Origin: Gammaproteobacteria bacterium
GTDB taxonomy: Bacteria > Pseudomonadota > Gammaproteobacteria > JAADGQ01
Assembly: GCA_021648145.1 (NCBI GenBank)
Contig: JAKITI010000004.1
Span: 127,848 to 172,714 of the forward strand
Length of the DNA stretch: 44,867 nt
Direction: 5' to 3'
Shown: in pieces, positions 3,198 to 44,836 of the stretch
Position numbering within the stretch: the stretch's first letter is position 1
How the letters are laid out: each line of letters opens with the position of its first letter
Program-made: the position numbers and the translations under genes
The notes under the pieces: model-generated
What the model saw: the letters and a program-made list of their open reading frames with translations, nothing else
Database searches by the model: none
Told to the model about the DNA's origin: nothing

Positions 3198-4487
<1,290 letters not shown>

Positions 4488-7320: not shown

Positions 7321-8376
7321 ATGAAAAAAATATTAACATTTGAAGAGAAATATGAAGTGATTGGTCGCAATAATGCTCTCTATGAGGGGGTATTCATCAC
7401 AGCGGTTAAAACAACAGGTATTTTTTGTCGCCCATCTTGCCGTGCCAGAAAACCAAAATCTGAAAATGTTATCTTTTATGATACTGCTCAGGAAGCCATA
7501 CAAAATGGTTTCAGGCCATGTAAAGTCTGCAAACCCATGGAAAAAATGGATGAAACACCTGATTATGTCAAAAATATCATCAAAGAGCTGCATGAAAATC
7601 CCTATTTGAGAATTAAGGACTACGGTTTAAAAGAAAGGGGAATTGAGCCTAGCCAGATAAGACGATGGTTTAAAAAGAATCACAACATAACATTTCACTC
7701 CTACCAACGAATGTTGCGTATTAATTCAGCGTTTAATAGTATCAAAAAAGGCGAGACAGTCACGAGCTCGGCATTTGATAGTGGTTATGGTTCACTCAGT
7801 GGGTTTAATGAAAGTTACCGCTCTATTTTTGGTGATTCAGCTACATACTCTAAAGGTAAGTCCATAATAAATATTGTTCGTTTTACAACGCCCATCGGGC
7901 CTATGTTTGCCTGCGCCAGTGAACATGGAGTTTGTCTGCTGGATTTTACTGACAGACGAATGTTAGAAACAGAATTTAAAGATTTATGTAAAAAATTGAA
8001 TGCTGTGATCTTGCCGGGTGCTAATTCGTATTTAGAGCAGGTTCAATCTGAATTATTAGAATACTTTTCAGGAAAACGAAAAAAATTTACGGTGCCACTG
8101 CACGCTCCAGGGACTGATTTCCAGCAAGCCGTCTGGAAAATATTACAAGATATCCCTTATGGCGAAACTCGTTCATACAAGCAGCAAGCCATTGCAATGA
8201 ACAATCCAAAAGCGATACGAGCGGTCGCATCTGCCAATGGTTATAATCGTATCGGAATCATCATTCCTTGCCATCGTGTGATCGGCTCTGATGGTCGTTT
8301 GGTGGGTTATGGTGGAGGGTTGCACCGGAAAAAATGGTTGCTTGATTTTGAATTATTAAACATTAAAACAGCCTGA
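7321..8376 (+). CDS. ada: Ada: methylphosphotriester-DNA methyltransferase / AraC-type activator / O6-methylguanine methyltransferase
   Basis: All three parts of Ada are visible. The N-terminal zinc domain has C36, C40, C67 and C70 (GIFCRPSC; FRPCKVC), where the first Cys accepts a methyl group from DNA phosphotriesters. A central AraC-type helix-turn-helix spans about 85-180 (DSGYGSLSGFNESYRSIFG). The C-terminal MGMT domain has the active-site IIPCHRVIGS with C317. Length 351 aa is normal. It repairs alkylation damage and activates its own regulon. The start at 7321 gives the usual N-terminus. It is divergent from msrB, so two damage-repair genes may share a regulatory region. Confidence 0.96.
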   Translation: MKKILTFEEKYEVIGRNNALYEGVFITAVKTTGIFCRPSCRARKPKSENVIFYDTAQEAIQNGFRPCKVCKPMEKMDETPDYVKNIIKELHENPYLRIKDYGLKERGIEPSQIRRWFKKNHNITFHSYQRMLRINSAFNSIKKGETVTSSAFDSGYGSLSGFNESYRSIFGDSATYSKGKSIINIVRFTTPIGPMFACASEHGVCLLDFTDRRMLETEFKDLCKKLNAVILPGANSYLEQVQSELLEYFSGKRKKFTVPLHAPGTDFQQAVWKILQDIPYGETRSYKQQAIAMNNPKAIRAVASANGYNRIGIIIPCHRVIGSDGRLVGYGGGLHRKKWLLDFELLNIKTA

Positions 8377-31207: not shown

Positions 31208-31366
31208 ATGGATGACATTTCCCCCAGTGATTTAAAAGCAATTCTACACTCCAAACGCGCCAATATTTACTACCTCGAAAAATGTCGCGTCATGCAAAAG
31301 GGCGGTCGTGTTGTTTATCTCACCGAAGAGAAGGTCGAGAAACAATACCCCCCTGTGTCAGGCTAG
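31208..31366 (+). pseudogene. cas1: 5' fragment of type I-F cas1, cut by the IS
   Basis: A good AGGAG (31199-31203) precedes ATG 31208. The first 47 codons (MDDISPSDLKAILHSKRANI; YYLEKCRVMQKGGRVVYLTE) match the N-terminus of type I-F Cas1 as I remember it (MDD-SPS-LK-ILHSKRANLYYL-HCRVL-NGGRVEY). The match ends at the Tyr codon 31346-31348, where I-F Cas1 would continue WNIP; here the frame reads PPVSG and stops at a TAG lying in the IS terminal repeat. The remaining ~280 residues are absent. The intact cas1 at 39835 is a I-C type and unlike this one. Confidence 0.82.
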
Positions 31367-31375
31367 TTGTCGCCT
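31358..31375 (+). repeat. IS left inverted repeat
   Basis: TCAGGCTAGTTGTCGCCT; its TAG supplies the stop of the I-F cas1 fragment. It pairs with 32988-33005 with three mismatches. Confidence 0.75.
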
Positions 31376-31402
31376 CTAATTTTCATATAGAGGTAGAGAG
31401 AA

Positions 31403-31930
31403 ATGAGAAGAAACTTCACAAAATCATTTAAAATTCAGGCCGTAGAAAAAGCACTGGGTCGAAGTGAAGAAACAACGATAAGTGAAATTGCCAGCACATT
31501 GAATATGAGTGAATCAACATTAAACAAGTGGATTATGAAAGCAAAAAGACAAGAGCTAGCAGAAGACTTTCCTGAAGATGGCACAAAGATGTCACAAGAG
31601 AAACGGCCACAGGACTGGACAACAAAAGAACGCCTTAACATGGTAATCACGTGTAGCTCATATGAAGGTGAAGCCTTGAGCTCCTATTGTAGAAAACAAG
31701 GTGTTTACCCACACCATATAGAGCAGTGGAAACTCGACTTTACTCGCGAAAACATTAAAAACACAGGAGTCACTTTCCGCACAGAGATCAAAACGCTGAA
31801 GAGTGAAAATAAAGCACTAAAAAAAGAGTTGACCCGCAAAGAAAAAGCGCTGGCTGAGACAGCGGCGCTATTAGTTCTCCAAAAAAAAGTCGACGAGATC
31901 TGGGGAAAAAACGAGGGCAGCTCACAATGA
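31403..31930 (+). CDS. IS3-like transposase OrfA (helix-turn-helix protein)
   Basis: 175 residues with an N-terminal HTH of the transposase_8 kind (RRNFTKSFKIQAVEKALGRS; STLNMSESTLNKWIMKAKRQ), a second HTH-like region (YCRKQGVYPHHIEQWKLDF) and a C-terminal leucine/lysine coiled coil (TEIKTLKSENKALKKELTRK) for oligomerisation. It binds the terminal repeats. It overlaps orfB by ATGA (31927-31930), implying reinitiation rather than the usual -1 frameshift. It appears intact. Confidence 0.87.
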   Translation: MRRNFTKSFKIQAVEKALGRSEETTISEIASTLNMSESTLNKWIMKAKRQELAEDFPEDGTKMSQEKRPQDWTTKERLNMVITCSSYEGEALSSYCRKQGVYPHHIEQWKLDFTRENIKNTGVTFRTEIKTLKSENKALKKELTRKEKALAETAALLVLQKKVDEIWGKNEGSSQ

Positions 31931-32976
31931 ACAGAGAACGAAAAGAAATTATTGAGTTAATCAATCAGGCGCGGGGCGCAGGAGCCAGGCAAGGGTTAGC
32001 CTGTGAAGTCATCGGAATCAGTACCAAGACTCTTCAGCGCTGGGAAGACCCCGACAATAAACAGGATGGTCGTCCAGCGGCAAAACATGCGCCCACAAAC
32101 AAACTCACTGAACTTGAGAGAAAGCGAGTTCTTAAAGTGGCCAACGAACCAGAGTTTGCTGATTTACCGCCTTGCAAAATAGTACCTAAACTTGCTGATC
32201 AAGGGAAATATATTGCATCACAATCAAGCTTTTATCGTATCTTAAATGAGAATAAGCAACTGAAACATAGAGACAAAAGCAAACCGTCAAGAAAAATGAC
32301 AAAACCACGTGCATTGACAGCGAGCGCAGTGAATCAGATATACACCTGGGATATCACCTATTTGCCGACTCAGATTAAAGGTGTCTACCTCTATCTGTAT
32401 TTAGTACTGGATATTTACAGTCGTAAAATTGTGGGCTGGCAGATTCATGGTGAAGAGCGGAGCCTGCTTGCAGCGGATTTGATCACAGATATATGTCAAC
32501 GTGAAGGGATCAAGCGTAATCAAGTCACGCTCCATTCAGATAATGGCAGCCCAATGAAAGGAGCCACCATGTTGGCGACATTACAAGAATTAGGCGTGGT
32601 GCCCTCATTTAGCCGCCCCTCAGTGAGTAATGATAACCCATATTCTGAGTCTATTTTTCGTACATTAAAATATCGCCCGGAGTATCCAGAAAAGCCATTT
32701 ATAGATATCGGTGCGGCGAGGTACTGGGTCAGCGAATTTGTTCAATGGTATAACCATGAACACCTGCATAGCGGCATTAAGTTTGTGACACCGGATCAAC
32801 GTCATACGGGTGAAGACATTCAAATACTGGCCAATCGAAAGCAGGTCTATGAAAAGGCAAAAGCTCAAAATCCGAGTCGCTGGACAGGTGAGATCAGAAA
32901 CTGGGATCGAATCGGTGAGGTTTATCTCAATCCTGAGAAAGGTAAATCTGAAATTGATCAGAATAAGGCGGCATAA
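31927..32976 (+). CDS. IS3-like transposase OrfB (DDE integrase core)
   Basis: 349 residues with an rve-type catalytic core. The DDE triad is D142 (YTWDITYLPT), D205 (LHSDNGSPM) and E241 (NPYSESIFRTLKYRPEYP), with 35 residues between the second Asp and Glu, as in IS3-family enzymes. The N-terminal HTH-like part is LACEVIGISTKTLQRWED. The C-terminus has FVQWYNHEHLHSGIKFVTPD. No frameshift or stop is seen, so the element could still be active. Confidence 0.9.
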   Translation: MNRERKEIIELINQARGAGARQGLACEVIGISTKTLQRWEDPDNKQDGRPAAKHAPTNKLTELERKRVLKVANEPEFADLPPCKIVPKLADQGKYIASQSSFYRILNENKQLKHRDKSKPSRKMTKPRALTASAVNQIYTWDITYLPTQIKGVYLYLYLVLDIYSRKIVGWQIHGEERSLLAADLITDICQREGIKRNQVTLHSDNGSPMKGATMLATLQELGVVPSFSRPSVSNDNPYSESIFRTLKYRPEYPEKPFIDIGAARYWVSEFVQWYNHEHLHSGIKFVTPDQRHTGEDIQILANRKQVYEKAKAQNPSRWTGEIRNWDRIGEVYLNPEKGKSEIDQNKAA

Positions 32977-32987
32977 ATTTAATCTTT

Positions 32988-33005
32988 AGGCGACAACTCT
33001 CTTGA
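32988..33005 (+). repeat. IS right inverted repeat
   Basis: AGGCGACAACTCTCTTGA, the partner of 31358-31375. Cas3-like coding sequence becomes recognisable only 7-10 bases beyond it (33012-33015). Confidence 0.75.
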
Positions 33006-33023
33006 AAAACGCCGCGTTATGCA

Positions 33024-34562
33024 TTGCATCATGCAAGACAGCATAAGCTGGATCGGATTATCTACATCATCCCGTTTACTTCCATAATTGAGCAGAACGC
33101 CGCAGCCATTAGGGGTGTTGTCGAAGACTCAAAAGACACAAGCCCTTGGGTGCTAGAGCAACATTCGAATCTGGAGCCAGAGCAGCAGAGTTGGCATAGC
33201 AAATTGGTGAGTGAAAACTGGGATGCGCCTATCGTAATGACCACGATGGTGCAGTTTCTTGAGGTGCTGTTTTCAGGAGGAACCAGAGGTGCAAGGAAGC
33301 TGCATCAATTGGCCAATACGGTATTGATATTTGATGAAATTCAAACACTTCCCATAAATTGTACCCACCTGTTTTGTAATGCGCTCAATTTTATCACTAA
33401 CTATTGCAATACCACAGCAGTGCTTTGTACCGCAACACAACCACTGCTTGATCAGCTTAAATCACCCGAGAAAGGCCAATTAATCATCCCACCTGAAAAT
33501 GAGTTGATCAGTGATGTACCTAAACTGTTTGAAAAGCTAAAGCGTGTGAAAGTGAGTAATAAGGTAAGACCTGAAGGTTGGACAACCGAACAGATCGCGG
33601 CACTCGCACTGGATGAGTTTAAAGAACTTGGTAGCTGCCTGATTATTGTCAATACAAAATCCTGGGCGCAGCAGCTTTATCTGGAAATACAAGCCGGTGC
33701 TGAAGTAGATAAAGAGTCGCTGTTTCAACTGAGCACCAGCCTTTGTCCAGCACATCGTAAAGTGATTTTTGCAAAAGTTAAGGCGCGACTGAAAAATAAC
33801 CAACCGGCATTGTGTATTAGCACTCAACTGATTGAAGCGGGTGTTGATGTGGATTTTGCATCAGTTATACGGTTTCTCGCCGGGTTGGACTCCATCGCGC
33901 AAGCTGCCGGGCGTTGCAATCGAAATGGTTTGCGTAAAGAAGCCACGGTGCATGTGGTTAACCCCGCAGAGGAAAATATTGATCTACTAACAGATATCAA
34001 AGTAGGTCGAGACAAGGCGCAGCGTGTTATGGATGAAGGCTTTGATGATTTATTGGCCCCCGATGCCATCAAACAATATTTTAACTATTATTTTTATGAT
34101 CGAGCTGAGGAAATGAGCTACCCCATATCGGCTAAAAAACTGGGTAGGGATGATGATTTACTCAACTTGTTGAGTTGCAATGCAGTAAATATTGGGCGTA
34201 ACAAAAACACATTACTGCTTCAACAATCCTTTATGACCGCTGGCAAAATGTTCAAGGCGATTGACTCGCCAACGCAGGCCGTCATTGTGCCTTATGGTGA
34301 AGAGGGGAAAGATTTAATTGCAGAGCTGGGGCGGGTTGCAAAAGAGTTCGATGTAAAAACCTATCGAGCACTGCTCAAGCAGGCGCAAAAATTCAGTGTT
34401 AACGTATTTCCCAATGTATGGAAACAGCTACAAAATGAAGGTGCTGTTCATGAAATACAGCCGGATGAAGGTATATTTTATCTCGATGAAAAATATTATA
34501 GCGATGAGTTTGGACTTTCAGTTAAACCCTGCAACAAAATGAGTTTTCTAGGAGTGGATTGA
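33024..34562 (+). CDS. cas3: 5'-truncated type I-C cas3: helicase remnant without HD domain and Walker A
   Basis: Cas3 is the nuclease-helicase that degrades targets found by Cascade. Numbering from TTG 33024, present motifs are HKLDRIIYIIPFTSIIEQNA (motif Ia region, 7-26), the DExH-type box LIFDEIQTL (101-109), TATQ (136-139), STQLIEAGVDVDF and QAAGRCNR (293-300, motif VI). The frame is closed by a TGA at 33003-33005 and homology starts about 33012, just after where the GGGKT P-loop should be. The N-terminal HD nuclease and motif I, roughly 250 residues, are gone at the IS boundary. The product (512 aa or less) should neither hydrolyse ATP nor cut DNA. There is no convincing ribosome-binding site. 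cas5c follows directly. Confidence 0.9.
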   Translation: MHHARQHKLDRIIYIIPFTSIIEQNAAAIRGVVEDSKDTSPWVLEQHSNLEPEQQSWHSKLVSENWDAPIVMTTMVQFLEVLFSGGTRGARKLHQLANTVLIFDEIQTLPINCTHLFCNALNFITNYCNTTAVLCTATQPLLDQLKSPEKGQLIIPPENELISDVPKLFEKLKRVKVSNKVRPEGWTTEQIAALALDEFKELGSCLIIVNTKSWAQQLYLEIQAGAEVDKESLFQLSTSLCPAHRKVIFAKVKARLKNNQPALCISTQLIEAGVDVDFASVIRFLAGLDSIAQAAGRCNRNGLRKEATVHVVNPAEENIDLLTDIKVGRDKAQRVMDEGFDDLLAPDAIKQYFNYYFYDRAEEMSYPISAKKLGRDDDLLNLLSCNAVNIGRNKNTLLLQQSFMTAGKMFKAIDSPTQAVIVPYGEEGKDLIAELGRVAKEFDVKTYRALLKQAQKFSVNVFPNVWKQLQNEGAVHEIQPDEGIFYLDEKYYSDEFGLSVKPCNKMSFLGVD

Positions 34563-35279
34563 ATGCATGATAAACCTAAAAACAGTGTCAGCTTCAAAGT
34601 GCATGGACGATATGCCCTGTTTACTGACCCTGTAACCAAAATCGGCGGTGAGAAATGCTCTTACCATTTGCCGACCTATGAAGCCATCAAAGGTGTGCTG
34701 AAGTCTATCTATTGGAAACCAAGCATTATTTGGTATGTGGATAAAGTAAGGGTGATGAAACCATTACGCACGCAAACCAAAGGTACAAAGCCACTGGTGT
34801 GGGGCGGTGGAAACAGTTTGGCTATTTATACTTTTTTGCACCATGTGGAATATCAGGTAGAGGCACACTTTGAATGGAACGAGCACCGCCCTGAATTAGC
34901 TAAAGATCATATTTCTGGCAAACACTTTGCCATTGCCAAGCGTTCAATCGAACGGGGTGGTAGACAAGATATATTTTTGGGGACGCGTGATTGCCAGGCT
35001 TATGTAGAAGCGTGTGAATTTGGCGAAGGTACTGGTGCTTATGATGACATTGAAGAGTTGGGGTTTGGTCTGATGTTTCATGGTTTTGACTACCCGGATG
35101 AGACGGGAAAAAATGAACTGCATAGCCGCTTTTGGAGCGCCACTTTAAAAAAAGGCATTCTGGAATTTCCTCGGCCTAAATATTGTACAGTGAGCCGCTT
35201 TATTCGCCCGATGTTGCCTAAACAATTTGAAGAAGGTGAAAACCTTTTATCTGTAGAAATTGAGGAGGCGAACTTATGA
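34563..35279 (+). CDS. cas5c: Cas5c (Cas5d), type I-C crRNA endonuclease and Cascade subunit
   Basis: In type I-C, Cas5 replaces Cas6 and cuts pre-crRNA in the repeat, leaving an 11-nt handle. The catalytic set known from Bacillus halodurans Cas5d (Tyr46, Lys116, His117) appears here with a constant shift of four: Y50 (KSIYWKP), K120 and H121 (SGKHFAIAKRSIERG). GGRQDIFLGTRDCQAYVEAC is the family signature. Length 238 aa is normal. The start directly follows the cas3 stop; the end overlaps cas8c by ATGA. Confidence 0.95.
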   Translation: MHDKPKNSVSFKVHGRYALFTDPVTKIGGEKCSYHLPTYEAIKGVLKSIYWKPSIIWYVDKVRVMKPLRTQTKGTKPLVWGGGNSLAIYTFLHHVEYQVEAHFEWNEHRPELAKDHISGKHFAIAKRSIERGGRQDIFLGTRDCQAYVEACEFGEGTGAYDDIEELGFGLMFHGFDYPDETGKNELHSRFWSATLKKGILEFPRPKYCTVSRFIRPMLPKQFEEGENLLSVEIEEANL

Positions 35280-37270
35280 GTTGGATGGCGAAGTTGTATG
35301 AAACCTATGAGGCTGGGATGCAGCTTGATTTACTTGACTCAGATAAATTGATGCCGATTAGCCATACACCTCAAAATGCTCACATAAAAATTACCATTGA
35401 TGGCGAGGGAAATTTTAGGCGGGCTGAAATATTACAAAAAACCCAAATTATTTTACCTGCAACAGAAAGATCGGCTGGAAGATCCGGTAGCGGTGCGGCT
35501 CCGCACCCATTGGCAGACAAAATACAGTATGTGGCAAAGGACTACCCAAACTTTGGAGGAAAGAAAAAAACCTTTTTTAATGAGTATTTAAATCAAATTA
35601 ATGAATGGTGTGAATCCTCATATTCCCACCCAAAGGTTAGGTCAGTATTTAAGTATATTGAGAAAGGAACGGTTGTTAGCGATTTGATTGAAAATAATAT
35701 TTTGCAAGTCGGAGAAGATAAATCCCTGTTGTTGTCGTGGCCTAAAGATAGTGAAACTGAGGCACCTCTAATATTTAAAGTTTTGCCAAAAGAAAAAGGA
35801 AAACTTGATCAAGGGAATGCACTCATTTGCTGGAATGTAGAAACGAAAGATGACTTAGTTAGTGAAACTTGGAGAGATCGCAGTTTGCAGAAGGCGTGGG
35901 TTTCATACGATCTATCGAAAAACGAAAAAACAGGGCTTTGTTATATCACCGGTAACCAAGTGCCTTTGGCAATAAACCATCCGGCAAAACTCCGCCATAC
36001 TGGAGATAAGGCAAAGCTTGTTTCATCAAATGATATGTCGGGTTATACCTTTAGGGGGCGATTTACAGACAGTAAAAAAGGCATAGAAAAGTTTGGTGCA
36101 CAATCAGTTGGCGTTTCTTTTGATGTTACTCAAAAAGCTCACAATGCTTTGCGCTGGTTGATTTCGCGTCAAGGATTCAGAAATGGAGACCAAGCAATTA
36201 TAGCCTGGGCTGTGTCAGGCGAAGAGATACCTCAACCCATGGAGGATATTTGGGATGCAATGTCTGATGAAATACAGGAGGTATCCGGCCTGCCTCTATC
36301 GGCGGAAACCCAGGTTGATCACACAAATGATCTTGGCCAGTCATTTTCCATAGCACTGGGTAAATACATGGCGGGTTATCGAACCAAGTTAAAGCCAACG
36401 GATAACATCATCATAATGGGGCTGGATTCTGCAACGCCAGGTCGCATGGCGGTTACCTATTACCAAGAGTTCTTTCCTGATAATTACATTGAGCGTATCT
36501 CAAAATGGCACGAAGAGTTTGCTTGGTATCAACGCCATAAAGTAGAAGAGGATGTAGGTAAGAAAAAACCAATTTCGAAGACCGTATGGCCTGTTTGCAC
36601 GCCATCCCCTAGGGCAATCTGGGAGGCTATTTACGGAAGCATCGTAAATGACTCACTCAAGAAAAATACGATAGAGCGTATTTTGCCTTGCATTGTTGAA
36701 GCACGGCCTTTTCCGCAAGATTTAGTTGAAAAGGCGGTACGGCGTGCCAGTAATCGCAGCTCATATAAATCTGATGAGCAGTGGTTATGGGAAAAACATT
36801 TAGGAATAGCATGTGCCCTGTATCGGGGTTTTTGTAAACGTCATCCAAAGCAGAGTAAGGAGTATATCGTGGGGTTAGAACAAGAGAATAATTCAAGAGA
36901 TTATTTATATGGTCGTCTGCTGGCGATTGCAGAGAGAATTGAAGATATGTCCTTGTATGTGTCGGGTGAAAATCGTTCCACTACTGCTGGGCGTTTAATG
37001 CAGCGTTTTGCCGACCGTCCGGCATCCACTTGGCGTAATATTGAGTTAGCATTGCAGCCCTATATACAGCGTCTCAAAAATAATCGCGCTGGTTTTTTGC
37101 ACAACATTCAAACGTTACTGGATGAGGTTATGTCTAAATTCAAAGAGGGTGAGTTTGTAAGCGACAAATCATTAAGCGGCGAGTTTTTGTTGGCCTATCA
37201 TACTCAGCGGCGAGAACTGCGTGATAAAAAACAATCAAACGAAAAAACAACTACTGGAGATAACGAATGA
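35276..37270 (+). CDS. cas8c: Cas8c (Csd1), large subunit of type I-C Cascade
   Basis: 664 residues; Cas8c recognises the PAM and stabilises the complex. Characteristic segments are the N-terminal YETYEAGMQLDLLDSDKLMP and ISHTPQNAHIKITIDGEGNF, CYITGNQVPLAINHPAKLRH, NDMSGYTFRGRF, KAHNALRWLISRQGFRNGDQ and MGLDSATPGRMAVTYYQEF. It is somewhat longer than many Csd1 proteins but uninterrupted. It overlaps both neighbours by four bases (ATGA), so cas5c-cas8c-cas7c are translationally coupled. Confidence 0.95.
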   Translation: MSWMAKLYETYEAGMQLDLLDSDKLMPISHTPQNAHIKITIDGEGNFRRAEILQKTQIILPATERSAGRSGSGAAPHPLADKIQYVAKDYPNFGGKKKTFFNEYLNQINEWCESSYSHPKVRSVFKYIEKGTVVSDLIENNILQVGEDKSLLLSWPKDSETEAPLIFKVLPKEKGKLDQGNALICWNVETKDDLVSETWRDRSLQKAWVSYDLSKNEKTGLCYITGNQVPLAINHPAKLRHTGDKAKLVSSNDMSGYTFRGRFTDSKKGIEKFGAQSVGVSFDVTQKAHNALRWLISRQGFRNGDQAIIAWAVSGEEIPQPMEDIWDAMSDEIQEVSGLPLSAETQVDHTNDLGQSFSIALGKYMAGYRTKLKPTDNIIIMGLDSATPGRMAVTYYQEFFPDNYIERISKWHEEFAWYQRHKVEEDVGKKKPISKTVWPVCTPSPRAIWEAIYGSIVNDSLKKNTIERILPCIVEARPFPQDLVEKAVRRASNRSSYKSDEQWLWEKHLGIACALYRGFCKRHPKQSKEYIVGLEQENNSRDYLYGRLLAIAERIEDMSLYVSGENRSTTAGRLMQRFADRPASTWRNIELALQPYIQRLKNNRAGFLHNIQTLLDEVMSKFKEGEFVSDKSLSGEFLLAYHTQRRELRDKKQSNEKTTTGDNE

Positions 37271-38106
37271 GCTTACAAAATAAAATTGATTTCGCCCTAA
37301 TTTTTAGTGTTAAAAATGCCAACCCTAATGGTGATCCGCTGAACGGTAATCGCCCACGTACCGATTACGATGGTTTTGGTGAAGTTTCGGATGTCTGTAT
37401 TAAACGCAAAATTCGTGATCGATTGCAAGAGGCGGGTGAACAGATATTTGTTCAATCGGATGAGAAAAAAACTGATGGAATGCCGAGTTTAAAAACTCGT
37501 GCAGAATCAGCAGAATATGGCTTGGGTAAAGATGCCTTTAATGTCAAAAAAACTACACCAGTAGAAACGGCACGTTTAGCCAATGAGAAATGGATTGATG
37601 TTCGTAGCTTTGGTCAGCTGTTTGCTTTTAAGAGTGAGAATAAAGATGGCGTTTCTATTCCCATTCGAGGCCCAGTTTCAATACAATCTGCATTTAGTAT
37701 AGAGCCTGTCAGCATTACTAGCCTGCAAATCACTAAAAGCGTTAGTGGTGAGGGAGATGGCAGCAAAAAAAGCTCAGATACAATGGGCATGAAACACCGA
37801 GTGGATAGCGCTGTTTATGTCACTTTTGGCGGTATGACCCCACAGCTTGCTGAGCGAACGGGTTTCAATGAAGAAGATGCGGACAAAATAAAACAAGTTT
37901 TACCAAAACTATTCGAAGGCGATGCTTCTTCCGCACGCCCAGAAGGCAGTATGGTGGTTGAGAAAGTCATTTGGTGGAAACACAACTGCAAATCTGGTCA
38001 ATACTCATCGGCAAAAGTTCATCGGACGCTCTCCGTGAAAGAGGATGGTAGCTATACACTTACCAACCTGGATGGGCTTGAGCCAGAAGAAATTGATGGA
38101 TTTTAA
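37267..38106 (+). CDS. cas7c: Cas7c (Csd2), backbone subunit of type I-C Cascade
   Basis: 279 residues; Cas7 polymerises along the crRNA spacer. The RRM-type N-terminus IDFALIFSVKNANPNGDPLN and GNRPRTDYDGFGEVSDVCIK are diagnostic; DTMGMKHRVDSAVYVTFGGM and VVEKVIWWKHNCKSGQYSSA lie further on. Normal length and intact. In ordinary I-C operons cas4 follows at once; here a RhuM-family gene stands between them. Confidence 0.96.
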   Translation: MSLQNKIDFALIFSVKNANPNGDPLNGNRPRTDYDGFGEVSDVCIKRKIRDRLQEAGEQIFVQSDEKKTDGMPSLKTRAESAEYGLGKDAFNVKKTTPVETARLANEKWIDVRSFGQLFAFKSENKDGVSIPIRGPVSIQSAFSIEPVSITSLQITKSVSGEGDGSKKSSDTMGMKHRVDSAVYVTFGGMTPQLAERTGFNEEDADKIKQVLPKLFEGDASSARPEGSMVVEKVIWWKHNCKSGQYSSAKVHRTLSVKEDGSYTLTNLDGLEPEEIDGF

Positions 38107-38110
38107 TCTA

Positions 38111-38188
38111 ATGCTCATCTACCAAGCCGAAGATGGACAGAGCCGTTTCTCGTTCCCACGCTCTGCGTGGGAACGCATACGGAGGTAA
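38111..38188 (+). pseudogene. Vestigial RhuM-like N-terminus running into a palindromic repeat
   Basis: Four bases after the cas7c stop, ATG 38111 opens a 25-codon frame: MLIYQAEDGQSRFSFPRSAW then ERIRR. Its first dozen residues resemble the common RhuM N-terminus (IxYQxEDGxxRxEVR), and the rest is the translation of the palindrome at 38151-38175. I read it as the leftover start of a second RhuM-like gene, or of the acceptor site of the insertion. It is too short to be a functional gene. Confidence 0.4.
38151..38175. repeat. Palindromic REP/MITE-like element
   Basis: CGTTCCCACGC - TCT - GCGTGGGAACG is a perfect 11-bp stem with a 3-base loop. Very similar CTCGTTCCCACGC...GCGTGGGAACG palindromes are scattered through many gammaproteobacterial genomes as small non-autonomous repeats. 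It lies just upstream of the RhuM ribosome-binding site and marks the left edge of the insertion in the cas operon. Confidence 0.75.
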
Positions 38189-38192
38189 TGGT

Positions 38193-39188
38193 ATGAAAAA
38201 ACTCATCCGCAACTCCACTGCTGAATTCCTGATCTTCACCTCTCAGGCAGGTGAAGAGAGCATCGAAGTTCGGGTGGAAGAAGAGACTGTCTGGTTAACT
38301 CAAAAGCTGATTGCTGAGCTGTTTGGTAAATCGGTATCCACCGTCAATGAGCATATTAAGAATATTTATACTGACAATGAGCTGGGTGAGACTGCCTCGC
38401 TGAGAAAATTCGGAAATTCCGAATTTTCTACTAAACCGACCAATTTCTACAATCTGGAGATGATTATCTCCGTGGGTTACCGCGTCAACTCAAAACGCGC
38501 CACTCAATTCCGCCAGTGGGCTACCCAGGTGCTACGCGAGTTCGCTATTAAAGGTTTTGTGCTGGATAACAAGCGTCTTGAAAATGGTTCTTTTTTAGGT
38601 GAAGACTATTTTGAGAGATTACTGGCTGAAATCCGCGAAATCCGGCTTAGCGAGCGGCGTTTTTATCAAAAAATAACCGACATTTATGCCACCAGTCTGG
38701 ATTACAACAAGGATGCTAATACGACCAAGATTTTCTTTGCTAAGGTGCAGAATCAACTTCACTTCGGCATACACGGTCACACGGCGGCTGAGTTGATTGT
38801 GCAGCGGGCTGATAGTGACAAAACGCATATGGGATTGACATCTTGGGGCAGTGCGCCCGACGGCAAGATCATTAAAACCGATGTGAGCATTGCCAAGAAT
38901 TACTTGAGCAAAGAGGAGCTGGAATCTTTGGGCAGAATCGTCAGTGCCTATCTGGATTTGGCAGAAGAGCGAGCCAAGCGAAATATCCCCATGACCATGG
39001 ACGACTGGAGCAAGCGGCTTGATCTGTTTCTTGAGTTTGATGAGCGGGATATTTTGCAAGATGCGGGAAAGGTCACCGCTGAAATTGCCAAAGCGTTTGC
39101 TGAAAGCGAATTCGAAAAATATCGCATTGTGCAAGATAGGCTTTTCAAATCAGATTTTGACCGGTTGCTGGAGCAGCAAAAAAAATGA
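38193..39188 (+). CDS. RhuM-family protein inserted in the cas operon
   Basis: 331 residues from ATG 38193, chosen because GGAGG (38181-38185) is placed well and MKKLIRNSTAEFLIFTSQAG leads into the RhuM core; the frame is open to 38133. Diagnostic RhuM segments are VEEETVWLTQKLIAELFGKS (a winged-HTH-like start), FYNLEMIISVGYRVNSKRAT, QFRQWATQVLREFAIKGFVL, YATSLDYNKDANTTKIFFAK and VQNQLHFGIHGHTAAELI. RhuM was named in a Salmonella pathogenicity island; relatives are often in defence and mobile islands, with unproven biochemistry. The stop overlaps cas4 by ATGA, so it is translationally coupled to the adaptation genes. It is not a normal part of type I-C. Confidence 0.88.
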   Translation: MKKLIRNSTAEFLIFTSQAGEESIEVRVEEETVWLTQKLIAELFGKSVSTVNEHIKNIYTDNELGETASLRKFGNSEFSTKPTNFYNLEMIISVGYRVNSKRATQFRQWATQVLREFAIKGFVLDNKRLENGSFLGEDYFERLLAEIREIRLSERRFYQKITDIYATSLDYNKDANTTKIFFAKVQNQLHFGIHGHTAAELIVQRADSDKTHMGLTSWGSAPDGKIIKTDVSIAKNYLSKEELESLGRIVSAYLDLAEERAKRNIPMTMDDWSKRLDLFLEFDERDILQDAGKVTAEIAKAFAESEFEKYRIVQDRLFKSDFDRLLEQQKK

Positions 39189-39838
39189 GTGACGAGCCAC
39201 AAACCATCATGCTCTCTGCATTGCAGCACTACGCTTACTGTCCACGCCAGTTTGCATTGATACATGTCGAACAAGCCTGGGCAGATAACCGCTTTACCGC
39301 CGAGGGAAATATATTGCATGAGCGGGTGGATTCTGGTGCCGCCGAGCAGCGTAAAGGCACACGCTACGAGCGCAGTGTGATGTTGAAATCGCAGCGCTAC
39401 CAGCTTACCGGTAAAATGGATTTGTTAGAGATTGAGCAAGGCGATTCACCGAAATATCTACCGGTGGAGTATAAGCGTGGCAAACCAAAAATTGAGGATT
39501 GGGATCGAATACAGGTATGTGCTCAGGCGCTCTGTATAGAAGAGATGCGCGATACCCATATTAGCGAGGGCGCGATTTGGTATTGGGAGGTGCGTCGTCG
39601 AGAAGTGATTCAGATTGATGATGCATTACGAGCGGCTACTGTTGCGGCCATTGAGGGCGCGCATGCCATATTGGCTTCAGGGAAAACACCCGTTCCAACC
39701 GATAAAACCAAGCGGTGTCGCGCCTGTTCGTTAGTAGATTTGTGCGAGCCTGGTACCTTTCGGCGTGATCATTCCGGTGTTTATATTGAAGGAATTTTTT
39801 TAGATCATAATGTGTATACAATCAGTGAAAAATCATGA
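39185..39838 (+). CDS. cas4: Cas4 exonuclease of type I-C
   Basis: RecB-like Fe-S nuclease that trims and orients prespacers according to the PAM. Four iron-sulfur cysteines are present: C19 (HYAYCPRQFAL), C178, C181 and C187 (RCRACSLVDLC). RecB motifs: H45 (NILHERVDSG), D79 (TGKMDLLE), E95 and K97 (PVEYKRGKPK). Length 217 aa is normal. It overlaps the RhuM gene before it and cas1 after it by four bases each. Confidence 0.95.
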   Translation: MSDEPQTIMLSALQHYAYCPRQFALIHVEQAWADNRFTAEGNILHERVDSGAAEQRKGTRYERSVMLKSQRYQLTGKMDLLEIEQGDSPKYLPVEYKRGKPKIEDWDRIQVCAQALCIEEMRDTHISEGAIWYWEVRRREVIQIDDALRAATVAAIEGAHAILASGKTPVPTDKTKRCRACSLVDLCEPGTFRRDHSGVYIEGIFLDHNVYTISEKS

Positions 39839-40851
39839 AAAAACTACTGAACACCCTCTATATTACGCGTCAAAAAAGCTACCTTCACAAGGAGCGGGAA
39901 ACTATTGTTGTAAAGCTGGATAAAGAAAAGCTCGGACAGTTCCCTGCGCTGACGGTCAGTAATATTCTCTGTTTTGGTCAGGTGAGTGTCTCTCCATTTT
40001 TGATGGGTTATTGTGGTGAAAAGAGTATAGGGCTTTCGTTCTACACGGAATATGGAAAGTTTTTAGCACGCGTTCAAGGCAAACAAACGGGTAATGTGTT
40101 GTTGCGGCGCACACAATACCGGTGGGCAGATGATGAGTTGAAGTCGGTATCTATCGCTCGTTTGATGGTGGCTGCAAAAATTGCGAATGGCCGGTCAGTG
40201 CTGATGCGCGAAGTGCGGAATCATGGTTCAAATGAGCCGATCGAAGCCGCGATTAAACACCTTGCTGCAAGCTTGCGCCGAGTGCGTCATGTCACAACTG
40301 TTCCAGAAATACTCGGAATAGAAGGGGATGCCGCAAACTGTTATTTCGGTGTGTTTAACGCGCTGCTAAAAGGCAATGGTTTTAAGTTTGGAGGGCGCGT
40401 GCGCCGTCCACCGACTGACCCTGTTAACGCATTGCTTTCGTTTGCTTATACATTAATCACGCACGAATGTGCATCGGCATTGCAGGGCGTAGGGCTTGAT
40501 CCTTATGTTGGATTTTTGCATCAAGACAGACCGGGGCGAGTGAGTCTTGCGGTTGATCTGTTGGAGGAGTTTAGAGCGCCTTGGGCGGATCGATTTGTTC
40601 TTACCCTGATTAACAGGCAGCAGGTTAAGCTCAATGACTTTGTGACGGAAGCCAGCGGTGCCGTTCGGTTAACGGATGACGCACGCAAAACTCTATTAGT
40701 TGCATGGCAAGAGCGAAAACAAGTTGAAGTCATGCATCCTTATTTAGATGAAAAAGTACCGGTTGGTCTACTGCCTCATTGTCAGGCTATGTTATTGGCG
40801 CGCCACCTACGTGGTGATACAGAATATTACCCCCCTTATCTGGTGAAATAA
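39835..40851 (+). CDS. cas1c: Cas1 integrase of type I-C
   Basis: 338 residues. Together with Cas2 it integrates new spacers at the leader end. Probable metal ligands are E163 (EILGIEGDAANCYFG), H229 (YVGFLHQDRPGRVSLAVDLL) and D241 in the same stretch. MKKLLNTLYITRQKSYLHKE is the typical I-C start. The gene is intact and overlaps cas4 by ATGA. It does not share the N-terminus of the I-F fragment at 31208, so the two come from different systems. Confidence 0.96.
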   Translation: MKKLLNTLYITRQKSYLHKERETIVVKLDKEKLGQFPALTVSNILCFGQVSVSPFLMGYCGEKSIGLSFYTEYGKFLARVQGKQTGNVLLRRTQYRWADDELKSVSIARLMVAAKIANGRSVLMREVRNHGSNEPIEAAIKHLAASLRRVRHVTTVPEILGIEGDAANCYFGVFNALLKGNGFKFGGRVRRPPTDPVNALLSFAYTLITHECASALQGVGLDPYVGFLHQDRPGRVSLAVDLLEEFRAPWADRFVLTLINRQQVKLNDFVTEASGAVRLTDDARKTLLVAWQERKQVEVMHPYLDEKVPVGLLPHCQAMLLARHLRGDTEYYPPYLVK

Positions 40852-40853
40852 TT

Positions 40854-41147
40854 ATGCTGGTTTTAGTGACATACGATGTAAGTGTTTTAACAAGCGATGG
40901 CAGGCGGCGTTTAAGGAATATAGCCAAGACTTGTTTGGACTATGGAATGCGAGTGCAAAACTCTGTATTTGAGTGCGAAGTTGATCCCGCGCAGTTCACT
41001 ATATTTAAAAATAAATTGATGGAAATTTATAATCCGAAAGAAGATAGTCTTCGTTTTTATTTTCTTGGTAAAAAAGGAAGGAGTAAGGTTGAGCATGTTG
41101 GTGCAAAAGTTACTCTTGATCCGATAAGAGATGCGTTAATTATTTAA
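40854..41147 (+). CDS. cas2: Cas2 of type I-C
   Basis: 97 residues with the ferredoxin-like fold: MLVLVTYDVSVLTSDGRRRL with Asp8, RNIAKTCLDYGMRVQNSVFE and RFYFLGKKGRSKVEHVGAK. It bridges two Cas1 dimers in the integrase. It starts 2 bases after the cas1 stop and is the last cas gene; the leader and array follow on the same strand. Confidence 0.97.
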   Translation: MLVLVTYDVSVLTSDGRRRLRNIAKTCLDYGMRVQNSVFECEVDPAQFTIFKNKLMEIYNPKEDSLRFYFLGKKGRSKVEHVGAKVTLDPIRDALII

Positions 41148-41325: not shown

Positions 41326-44300
41326 GTCGCACCCTTCGCGGGTGCGTGGATTGAAACCCCTTTAACTCCTGGACTTTTAACGTGTCAAGCTCGTCGCACC
41401 CTTCGCGGGTGCGTGGATTGAAACGATATTTTTGAAATGCTTTTTGTCGGAATTGGCGTCGCACCCTTCGCGGGTGCGTGGATTGAAACGTCCAGTTTTA
41501 GTATCAAAGCGAGAGACTATACAAGTCGCACCCTTCGCGGGTGCGTGGATTGAAACTAGCTCGTTAATTAAGCAGATGGATTTACCCGCAGTCGCACCCT
41601 TCGCGGGTGCGTGGATTGAAACCCCCCCCCTGCAAAGTGTCTGGCGCAATATCACGGTCGCACCCTTCGCGGGTGCGTGGATTGAAACAAACTCTTTGTA
41701 CCAATCTGCTGCTTTAAGAGACGTCGCACCCTTCGCGGGTGCGTGGATTGAAACTGTACTATTTAAAATGAGGATTAAGTAAATGTCACGTCGCACCCTT
41801 CGCGGGTGCGTGGATTGAAACATGCAGTGCTTAGTTGGCACGTAAACCGTTTCTTGTCGCACCCTTCGCGGGTGCGTGGATTGAAACATTTTTACGTACC
41901 AAATCAATTCTCAATTTAATATGTCGCACCCTTCGCGGGTGCGTGGATTGAAACTCGTGATACCTGCGCACCCACTACAACGGGAATAGTCGCACCCTTC
42001 GCGGGTGCGTGGATTGAAACTTTGAAAGCAGCCATACATTAATTTTGGAGAAAAGTCGCACCCTTCGCGGGTGCGTGGATTGAAACAATCCTTTGCCTTC
42101 GCAGCAATCTCGGAATTCTGTCGCACCCTTCGCGGGTGCGTGGATTGAAACTCCTTGTTTGCTTTGGGTTAATCCCTTAGCTATGGTCGCACCCTTCGCG
42201 GGTGCGTGGATTGAAACAACAAATCCCGCGCCCATTTCTTGTAGGTCTTTGTCGCACCCTTCGCGGGTGCGTGGATTGAAACCTTTACGTGTACTTTTCC
42301 TTCATCAGCGATGCGGTCGCACCCTTCGCGGGTGCGTGGATTGAAACCAGCTTCTTTTGTTGCTTTAATGGCCGCTTCTTGGTCGCACCCTTCGCGGGTG
42401 CGTGGATTGAAACTAATACATATTGATATGCTTAATGTACTTGATGATGTCGCACCCTTCGCGGGTGCGTGGATTGAAACAATAATATTATTGCTTGATA
42501 CACCTGATATTGCGGTCGCACCCTTCGCGGGTGCGTGGATTGAAACGCAGGATGAAATTGATTTGATGAATGAAGGAAAGGTCGCACCCTTCGCGGGTGC
42601 GTGGATTGAAACAAATATCAGAGTAATTGCCTTGAGACTGTCCGAGGTCGCACCCTTCGCGGGTGCGTGGATTGAAACCCTGTATTTCCAGAAAAATTGA
42701 TTTCCAGTGAATGTCGCACCCTTCGCGGGTGCGTGGATTGAAACCTGCGCAGCAAGCCCGTGCAACAGGTTATGGAGCAGTCGCACCCTTCGCGGGTGCG
42801 TGGATTGAAACTGCCGAGCAGGGTCATGAGCAAATGAGCCAGAGAGTCGCACCCTTCGCGGGTGCGTGGATTGAAACCTGATGGATATGATTTTGATTCG
42901 TCATCGAGATGGTCGCACCCTTCGCGGGTGCGTGGATTGAAACAGACCTAACAGTTTGCTGGACACCCGTGGAAATAGGTCGCACCCTTCGCGGGTGCGT
43001 GGATTGAAACGTGCAAGTCATCAAAATCGCACTCACGAATATGTGTCGCACCCTTCGCGGGTGCGTGGATTGAAACTCGCGGGGCCAGTTTGAGTAATGC
43101 TAATATTATCGTCGCACCCTTCGCGGGTGCGTGGATTGAAACTAGACAAGCGATAGTTGTTTCGTTTTCTTTAAAGTCGCACCCTTCGCGGGTGCGTGGA
43201 TTGAAACTTTGCCTGCTGCCATCGCAGCATCATTTGCCTCGTCGCACCCTTCGCGGGTGCGTGGATTGAAACTTTTTGAGTGCTTTATCTCTTTTTGCAA
43301 TATTACTGTCGCACCCTTCGCGGGTGCGTGGATTGAAACTGCTAAGCGCCAACTGGGTTTGCCGTTTGCTTTATGTCGCACCCTTCGCGGGTGCGTGGAT
43401 TGAAACAATTGGTATGTCAGAGTTTATTGACTCCATTGATGTCGCACCCTTCGCGGGTGCGTGGATTGAAACTCAATAAGTTGGCTCGGCGGTTCACTCT
43501 CCGTTTGTCGCACCCTTCGCGGGTGCGTGGATTGAAACTAGGCGAGTGCGAAAATAGAAATATTATTGTTCAGTCGCACCCTTCGCGGGTGCGTGGATTG
43601 AAACATATCAAAGCACTGATTGTTTTTAAATCCAGTCAAGTCGCACCCTTCGCGGGTGCGTGGATTGAAACCAAAAATGATAAAAGACGACGAATGGCCG
43701 AAAATGTCGCACCCTTCGCGGGTGCGTGGATTGAAACTAAAATTTATAAACTTAATTATAATAAGTGTCAGTCGCACCCTTCGCGGGTGCGTGGATTGAA
43801 ACTAATGCTGTTTATTTTGCTGCAGTATGCTAATTCGTCGCACCCTTCGCGGGTGCGTGGATTGAAACTTAATAAAGACCCCAGAAAGATGAACTGGTCT
43901 TCGTCGCACCCTTCGCGGGTGCGTGGATTGAAACATAAAAACGCGGAGCATAGCGGCGGAGAATTTAGTCGCACCCTTCGCGGGTGCGTGGATTGAAACT
44001 TAAAGTCGAAACCAATAGTTCGGATATAGAATGGTCGCACCCTTCGCGGGTGCGTGGATTGAAACTTGACCCCATAAACTTTAAAACCATTGCGTTTTAG
44101 TCGCACCCTTCGCGGGTGCGTGGATTGAAACATTGTCTTAAAAAGGTATGTCATCATCAAAGTCGTCGCACCCTTCGCGGGTGCGTGGATTGAAACGACA
44201 CGTAATTGAGGATTATTTATTGATTCACTTGTCGCACCCTTCGCGGGTGCGTGGATTGAAACGGTTTTTTTATGCAGCAGCGCTTACGGGATTTAGTGTC

Positions 44301-44729
44301 GCACCCTTCGCGGGTGCGTGGATTGAAACATGACCTGCGAGAGCGACGACTAAGTGTAAATACGTCGCACCCTTCGCGGGTGCGTGGATTGAAACCCAAG
44401 CAGCAAATGGAACCTCTTTGCCGCGCTTGTGTCGCACCCTTCGCGGGTGCGTGGATTGAAACTCTAATTGATGGCTTGATGGCTATCCTAAATCAAGGTC
44501 GCACCCTTCGCGGGTGCGTGGATTGAAACAACGCAAAACGAAAGTCAGCAGTCAAGGCACGGGTCGCACCCTTCGCGGGTGCGTGGATTGAAACGAGGGG
44601 GTCGTCCGCAATACTCAGGCAAACGAAGCCAGTCGCACCCTTCGCGGGTGCGTGGATTGAAACAGATATAAACGCACAATCAATCAACCTACGTAAAGTC
44701 GCACCCTTCGCGGGTGCGTGGATTGAAAC
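41326..44729 (+). CRISPR. Type I-C CRISPR array, 52 repeats and 51 spacers
   Basis: The 32-base repeat (first copy 41326-41357, last 44698-44729) begins GTCGCACCC, has a hairpin CGCACCC-TTCGC-GGGTGCG, and ends GTGGATTGAAAC, the standard type I-C form; Cas5c would leave TGGATTGAAAC as the 11-nt handle. I located 52 copies by their starts, with a period of 64-70 bases and spacers of about 33-37 bases, and saw no base changes in any copy. Leader side is left, so oldest spacers are at the right. I saw no duplicated spacers. Spacer 43 (44132-44164) is discussed in the findings. The frames open through the array on both strands are not genes. Confidence 0.98.
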
Positions 44730-44739
44730 GACTTTCGGC

Positions 44740-44836
44740 AGTCGTGGTAGAACGGCCAGTTACCTGACCGCCCCCACACAGATCCGGACGTGCGGAATTA
44801 CCGCATCCGGCTCTTCAATTATATCGTTGCTCGTGT
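44740..44836 (-). other. Group II intron 3' part (domains V and VI), minus strand
   Basis: Read on the minus strand, 44813-44781 begins GAGCCGGATGCGG and ends CCGCACGTCCGGATC. It folds as domain V: an eight-pair lower helix with the AGC triad in GAGCC (one non-canonical pair), a two-base CG bulge and a five-pair upper helix, but with a UAAUU loop instead of the usual GNRA. Next, 44770-44753 folds as a domain VI-like hairpin (CGGTCAG-GTAA-CTGGCCG). The intron 3' end should lie near 44740-44750, about 10-20 bases outside the last CRISPR repeat. The rest of the intron and any maturase would be past the right edge. Confidence 0.55.

Follow-up and report, generated by a model that had tools for sequence, protein, structure and literature searches.

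A type I-C cas3 gene very probably split by an IS3-family element next to intact Cascade genes, adaptation genes, and array

Can a type I-C CRISPR-Cas locus keep its Cascade genes, adaptation genes, and a large array beside a Cas3 that has neither nuclease domain nor P-loop, and if so, is this a new kind of Cas3 or a broken one? The question arises from a stretch of 44,867 nucleotides (the window) in a draft gammaproteobacterial genome of 31 contigs. We found that the open reading frame at 33006/33024 to 34562 corresponds to the C-terminal 512 amino acids of a type I-C Cas3. It scored 104.2 bits against TIGR01587 (cas3_core; cut-off, 102.45), aligned from profile position 19, and it matched PADLOC Cas3c at 1.6e-146 starting at model position 205 of 612, with the N-terminal third missing. 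As a sequence-only reading of this DNA had reported, the remnant keeps its later helicase motifs: Ia (PFTSI), II (DEIQ), III (TATQ), V, and VI were all found. Neither an HD domain nor a Walker A motif was found for this gene within the window. The start codons available to the 3' part are weak (TTG at 33024), and no in-frame ATG was found near its beginning. The features at this junction are as follows.

31208 to 31348, plus strand: 5' stub of a type I-F cas1 gene, 47 codons, ending exactly at the left end of the insertion sequence (IS)
31349 to 33014, plus strand: IS3-family IS of 1,666 bp, from profile matches and a Shewanella homologue
31403 to 31930 and 31927 to 32976, plus strand: two overlapping transposase open reading frames of the IS3-family element
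33015 to 34562, plus strand: 3' part of cas3c (helicase motifs Ia to VI and the C-terminal domain)

The element immediately upstream of the cas3 remnant has the features of the IS3 family. Its OrfB carries an rve integrase core (187 bits; IS3 cut-off, 160), its terminal inverted repeats are imperfect (CCCCCTGTGTCAGGCTAGTTGTCGCC / CGGCGTTTTTCAAGAGAGTTGTCGCC), and it is associated with a short target duplication, the 4 bases CGTT, whose right copy lies at 33015 to 33018. The same termini (left, CCCCCTGTGTCAGG; right, CTCTTGAAAAACGCCG) and a 4-base duplication are found in a homologous IS carried by a Shewanella plasmid. Because of the comparison with those termini, we placed the bounds of the element at 31349 and 33014 and the first base of cas3 sequence at 33015. 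When we searched the genome with the IS, the only matches were the window itself, a 36-base stretch on contig C6, and the last 127 bases of contig C21. No copy was found in two other genomes of the family.

The missing part of the gene is on C21. A search of the genome with the HD model of Cas3 had a single strong match, on this contig (109.9 bits; E value, 1.8e-31). The end of C21 carries, in order, an ATG, the HD domain (HDMGK), the P-loop TVPTGGGKTYASLR (TVPTGGGKT, which contains TGGGKT), and then directly the left end of the IS. The 5' part of cas3, with HD nuclease and P-loop, thus comes to 296 codons. The final 127 bases of C21 are identical to positions 31349 to 31475 of the window, the left end of the IS, and identity of this length at a contig end is what a de Bruijn assembler with a k of 127 would leave at an unresolved repeat. 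The C21 flank reads TTGCGTT up to the IS and the right flank in the window reads CGTTATGC after it; the CGTT common to both is the 4-base target duplication. When the flanks were joined without the IS and the duplication, they gave a single open Cas3 frame of 810 amino acids, with motifs as in the relatives, and this frame was colinear with the open frames of 808 to 826 codons in relatives with a complete cas3. Seven relatives (L020 to L025 and L030) align to C21 up to positions 7832 to 7834 of L015 and resume at 33014/33015 of the window, i.e., they switch exactly at the IS. The relatives are metagenome-assembled genomes, and their identity over the 3' part of cas3 is 77 to 95%.

Taken together, these sequence comparisons make it very probable that an ordinary type I-C cas3 was split by an IS3-family element between motifs I and Ia. 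According to this model, the element would have inserted into an intact cas3 between motif I (Walker A) and motif Ia and duplicated CGTT, which would leave the 5' part upstream of the left end of the IS (on C21) and the 3' part downstream of its right end (in the window). The adjacency of C21, the IS, and the window is inferred, not read, because C21 shows only 127 bases of the IS. The apparent Cas3 without HD domain and P-loop, an impression owed in part to the way the contigs were assembled, is thereby explained, and it is not a new kind of Cas3: both parts are absent from the window, as first noticed, but both exist in the genome.

The two parts of cas3 have no stop codons, and their dN/dS values against the relatives are about 0.04 to 0.11, with synonymous sites near saturation in most pairs. 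The open frames and low ratios fit a recent split. A recent loss had been one of the proposals of the sequence-only reading; its timing agrees with the stop-free halves, the low dN/dS, and perfect array repeats, but the event looks like a clean IS insertion in which the 5' part was not lost. One relative stands apart in this comparison. In L030 (6317 to 8317), identity is 95% over the 3' part of cas3 but drops to 77% over the HD part, which suggests that this domain has recombined or is changing fast in the clade.

Some observations speak against pairing C21 with the window. First, what precedes the IS on the window contig is a cas1f stub. This stub scored 53.5 bits against TIGR03637 and 74.4 bits against PADLOC Cas1fv, and apparently a second CRISPR system, of type I-F, was hit by the same IS. 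Profile searches of the genome's contigs found neither the 3' part of this cas1f nor a further cas1f nor csy3. Second, we looked for a contig bearing the other right flank of the IS, i.e., the 3' part of cas1f, and found none; contig ends were examined through the searches and the few stretches to which those pointed. In a sister genome, a short piece homologous to the left region of the window had no evident cas genes when its frames were read by eye. The IS thus has two left flanks but a single right flank, which implies either an assembly join to the wrong flank or recombination between IS copies, and the cas1f stub belongs to a second insertion or to a rearrangement, respectively. In the first case, there would be two IS copies, one in cas1f and one in cas3, the wrong flanks would have been joined, and the other right flank would be unbinned. 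In the second, real IS-IS recombination would have joined the 5' stub of cas1f to the 3' part of cas3, and the halves of cas3 would now lie far apart in the chromosome. We regard such a rearrangement as possible but somewhat doubtful. The continuity of the window contig through the IS, the single right flank in the assembly, and the absence of csy3 and the rest of cas1f are consistent with it. However, the duplication and the reading frame pair C21 with the right flank in the window, the missing type I-F part may just be unbinned, and wrong joins across repeats longer than the reads are a common assembly error. Since the duplication pairs these two flanks, the original insertion would be C21, IS, and cas3 3' part under misassembly and recombination alike. 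The sequence-only reading had named two things that would undo it, the missing 5' part elsewhere in a form that complements in trans and an assembly error at the junction. For the most part these turned up: the 5' part was found and the IS junction is untrustworthy as a join, but a trans-complementing form is not supported. Because a draft genome may be mixed, the IS may also be absent from some cells.

The remainder of the locus follows the cas3 remnant on the same strand.

34563 to 35279, plus strand: cas5c, above its family cut-off
35276 to 37270, plus strand: cas8c/csd1, above its family cut-off
37267 to 38106, plus strand: cas7c/csd2, above its family cut-off and aligned with relatives over all 279 residues
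39185 to 39838, plus strand: cas4, above its family cut-off
39835 to 40851, plus strand: cas1c, above its family cut-off
40854 to 41147, plus strand: cas2, above its family cut-off
41326 to 44729, plus strand: CRISPR array with 52 identical 32-nucleotide repeats and 51 unique spacers
41623 to 41656, plus strand: spacer 5 of the array, matching the genome's own mrcB (PBP1b) on contig C19 at 34 of 34 positions

The genes cas5c, cas8c, and cas7c exceed curated cut-offs and stand in type I-C order, and cas4, cas1c, and cas2 are followed by the adjoining array. What the locus does not have is an intact cas3, with the HD domain and motifs I to VI in one frame. The genome does contain all of the cas3 motifs, but the IS divides them between two contigs, and we therefore describe this as a disrupted type I-C locus. 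The earlier description of the other six genes as intact held up, in that all scored above their cut-offs and were full length where relatives cover them, as did its statement that no repeat shows decay (52 of 52 are perfect). Outside the array, the genome has no copy of this repeat.

Between cas7 and cas4 lies rhuM (38133 to 39188; Pfam Virulence_RhuM; PADLOC candidate PDC-S05), which overlaps the start of cas4 by 4 bases. It is at the same spot in close relatives and is broken in L021 and L022. By eye, the same gap holds a short frame resembling a zinc-finger antitoxin in L024 and different small genes in L028 and L029. Given this varying content (L020, L021, L022, L024, L028, and L029), the cas7-cas4 gap looks like a hotspot for type I-C accessory genes. 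A frame that by eye resembles Bro-N/DinD lies between cas4 and cas1 in L021 (12193 to 13068), and a similar one begins in the cas7-cas4 gap of L029. The 3' end of a group II intron (44741 to 44815, minus strand; Rfam RF00029, 41.1 bits) directly follows the final repeat of the array, close to the contig end, and the repeated nature of this intron probably explains why the contig stops there.

Spacer 5 raises the question of whether the insertion was selected. Among the 51 spacers queried against the genome, in a search effective for the about 42 that recovered their own array position, it was the one with a second match, on C19 at 3695 to 3728, inside mrcB (TIGR02071 PBP1b, 827.8 bits). Being fifth from the leader, it was probably acquired recently. 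A search of IMG/VR with six spacer patterns gave no match, and a comparison of the first 23 spacers with phages gave a single weak one. Under a scenario of release from autoimmunity, Cas3 directed by this self-targeting spacer would have harmed its own cell, and selection would have favored the IS insertion. The exact match to a housekeeping gene and the leader-proximal position of the spacer are consistent with this, and mutation of cas genes is a known way to escape self-targeting (PMC10810201). However, the protospacer is flanked by CAA on its 5' side and CTC on its 3' side, with TTC on neither, and characterized I-C systems use a 5'-TTC PAM (PMC8406640, PMC10810201), which may not be the PAM of this system. 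Moreover, gain of spacer 5 after the loss of Cas3 fits equally well. Because the 5' flank is CAA and not TTC, autoimmunity as the cause is possible but unsupported by the PAM, and we consider it unlikely.

What could the locus still do? If cas3 was split as we propose, cells with the insertion would make no working Cas3 and target degradation would be off; interference in cis should thus be off in these cells, and the Cascade genes, adaptation genes, and array would still be present because the insertion is recent. It had been suggested that a Cas3 elsewhere works in trans. We found no second cas3 above the cas3_core cut-off in the genome, and complementation in trans therefore seems to be lacking; apart from the remnant, the one cas3-like piece is the gene's own 5' half. 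Matches to cas3_core on C8, C1, C4, C11, C5, and C18 were rejected as far below the cut-off, an HD match on C29 was rejected as weak (21.7 bits), and a match on C24 (L008; 5095 to 8265) was rejected as a larger helicase. A DUF1837-like frame comes before the L008 helicase frame, and by eye the two resemble a Hachiman defense pair.

The predicted Cascade could at most bind its targets, a role that the sequence-only reading had also raised, provided that the downstream genes are transcribed. Promoter-like sites at the right end of the IS and the start of the cas3 3' part were no more frequent than in shuffled sequences. We think it very unlikely that Cascade without Cas3 is kept as a binding-only silencer, with spacer 5 repressing mrcB. 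The Cascade genes and crRNA array are intact, the self-match is exact, and there are precedents: in Xanthomonas, an I-C Cascade that lacks Cas3 binds and represses its target, blocking transcription (PMC10810201), and crRNAs are still made without Cas3 in I-C (PMC8406640). If Cascade had such a role, one would expect related strains to have kept it and to lack Cas3 stably, but close relatives have a complete cas3, and no sister strain without cas3 was found. The CAA flank of the protospacer, the recent look of the insertion, an operon severed from whatever promoter precedes cas3, and the lack of any sign of selection for binding also argue against it. Still less credible is that the two fragments work as a split Cas3 (an HD and P-loop piece and a helicase piece): both frames are open, and other CRISPR subtypes do have Cas3'' and Cas3' as separate proteins, but the break interrupts the first RecA domain, with motif I on one side and motif Ia on the other, and the 3' part would have to begin at a weak start.

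We return to the preferred reading, a cas3 cut by an IS. The case suggests a caution: when a draft genome shows a shortened effector gene next to an IS, the ends of its other contigs should be inspected before anyone infers new biology. In gene order, family matches, and array position, the locus is like type I-C (cas3-cas5c-cas8c-cas7c-cas4-cas1-cas2), and several metagenome-assembled genomes carry related type I-C loci with uninterrupted cas3. Unlike the usual arrangement, cas3 here is interrupted by an IS and rhuM lies between cas7 and cas4. CRISPR-associated transposons and Cas3-less silencing Cascades likewise do without a working Cas3; unlike in those binding-only type I systems, we saw no transposition genes or other effector beside the locus, and the loss of Cas3 looks like a fresh gene disruption. 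IS-disrupted cas loci are on record in mycobacteria (PMC10333696), and a cas3 interrupted by IS186 is on record in E. coli (PMC8148099). The latter shares with our locus a mobile element within cas3, but the host and the IS differ, and it kept only cas2 among the other cas genes, whereas all are intact here. Inactivation of cas3 by an IS is thus already documented. Our locus adds a type I-C case to that record: a mobile element has apparently switched off the CRISPR system, but the Cascade genes, adaptation genes, and array are still intact, and one of the spacers matches the cell's own DNA exactly.
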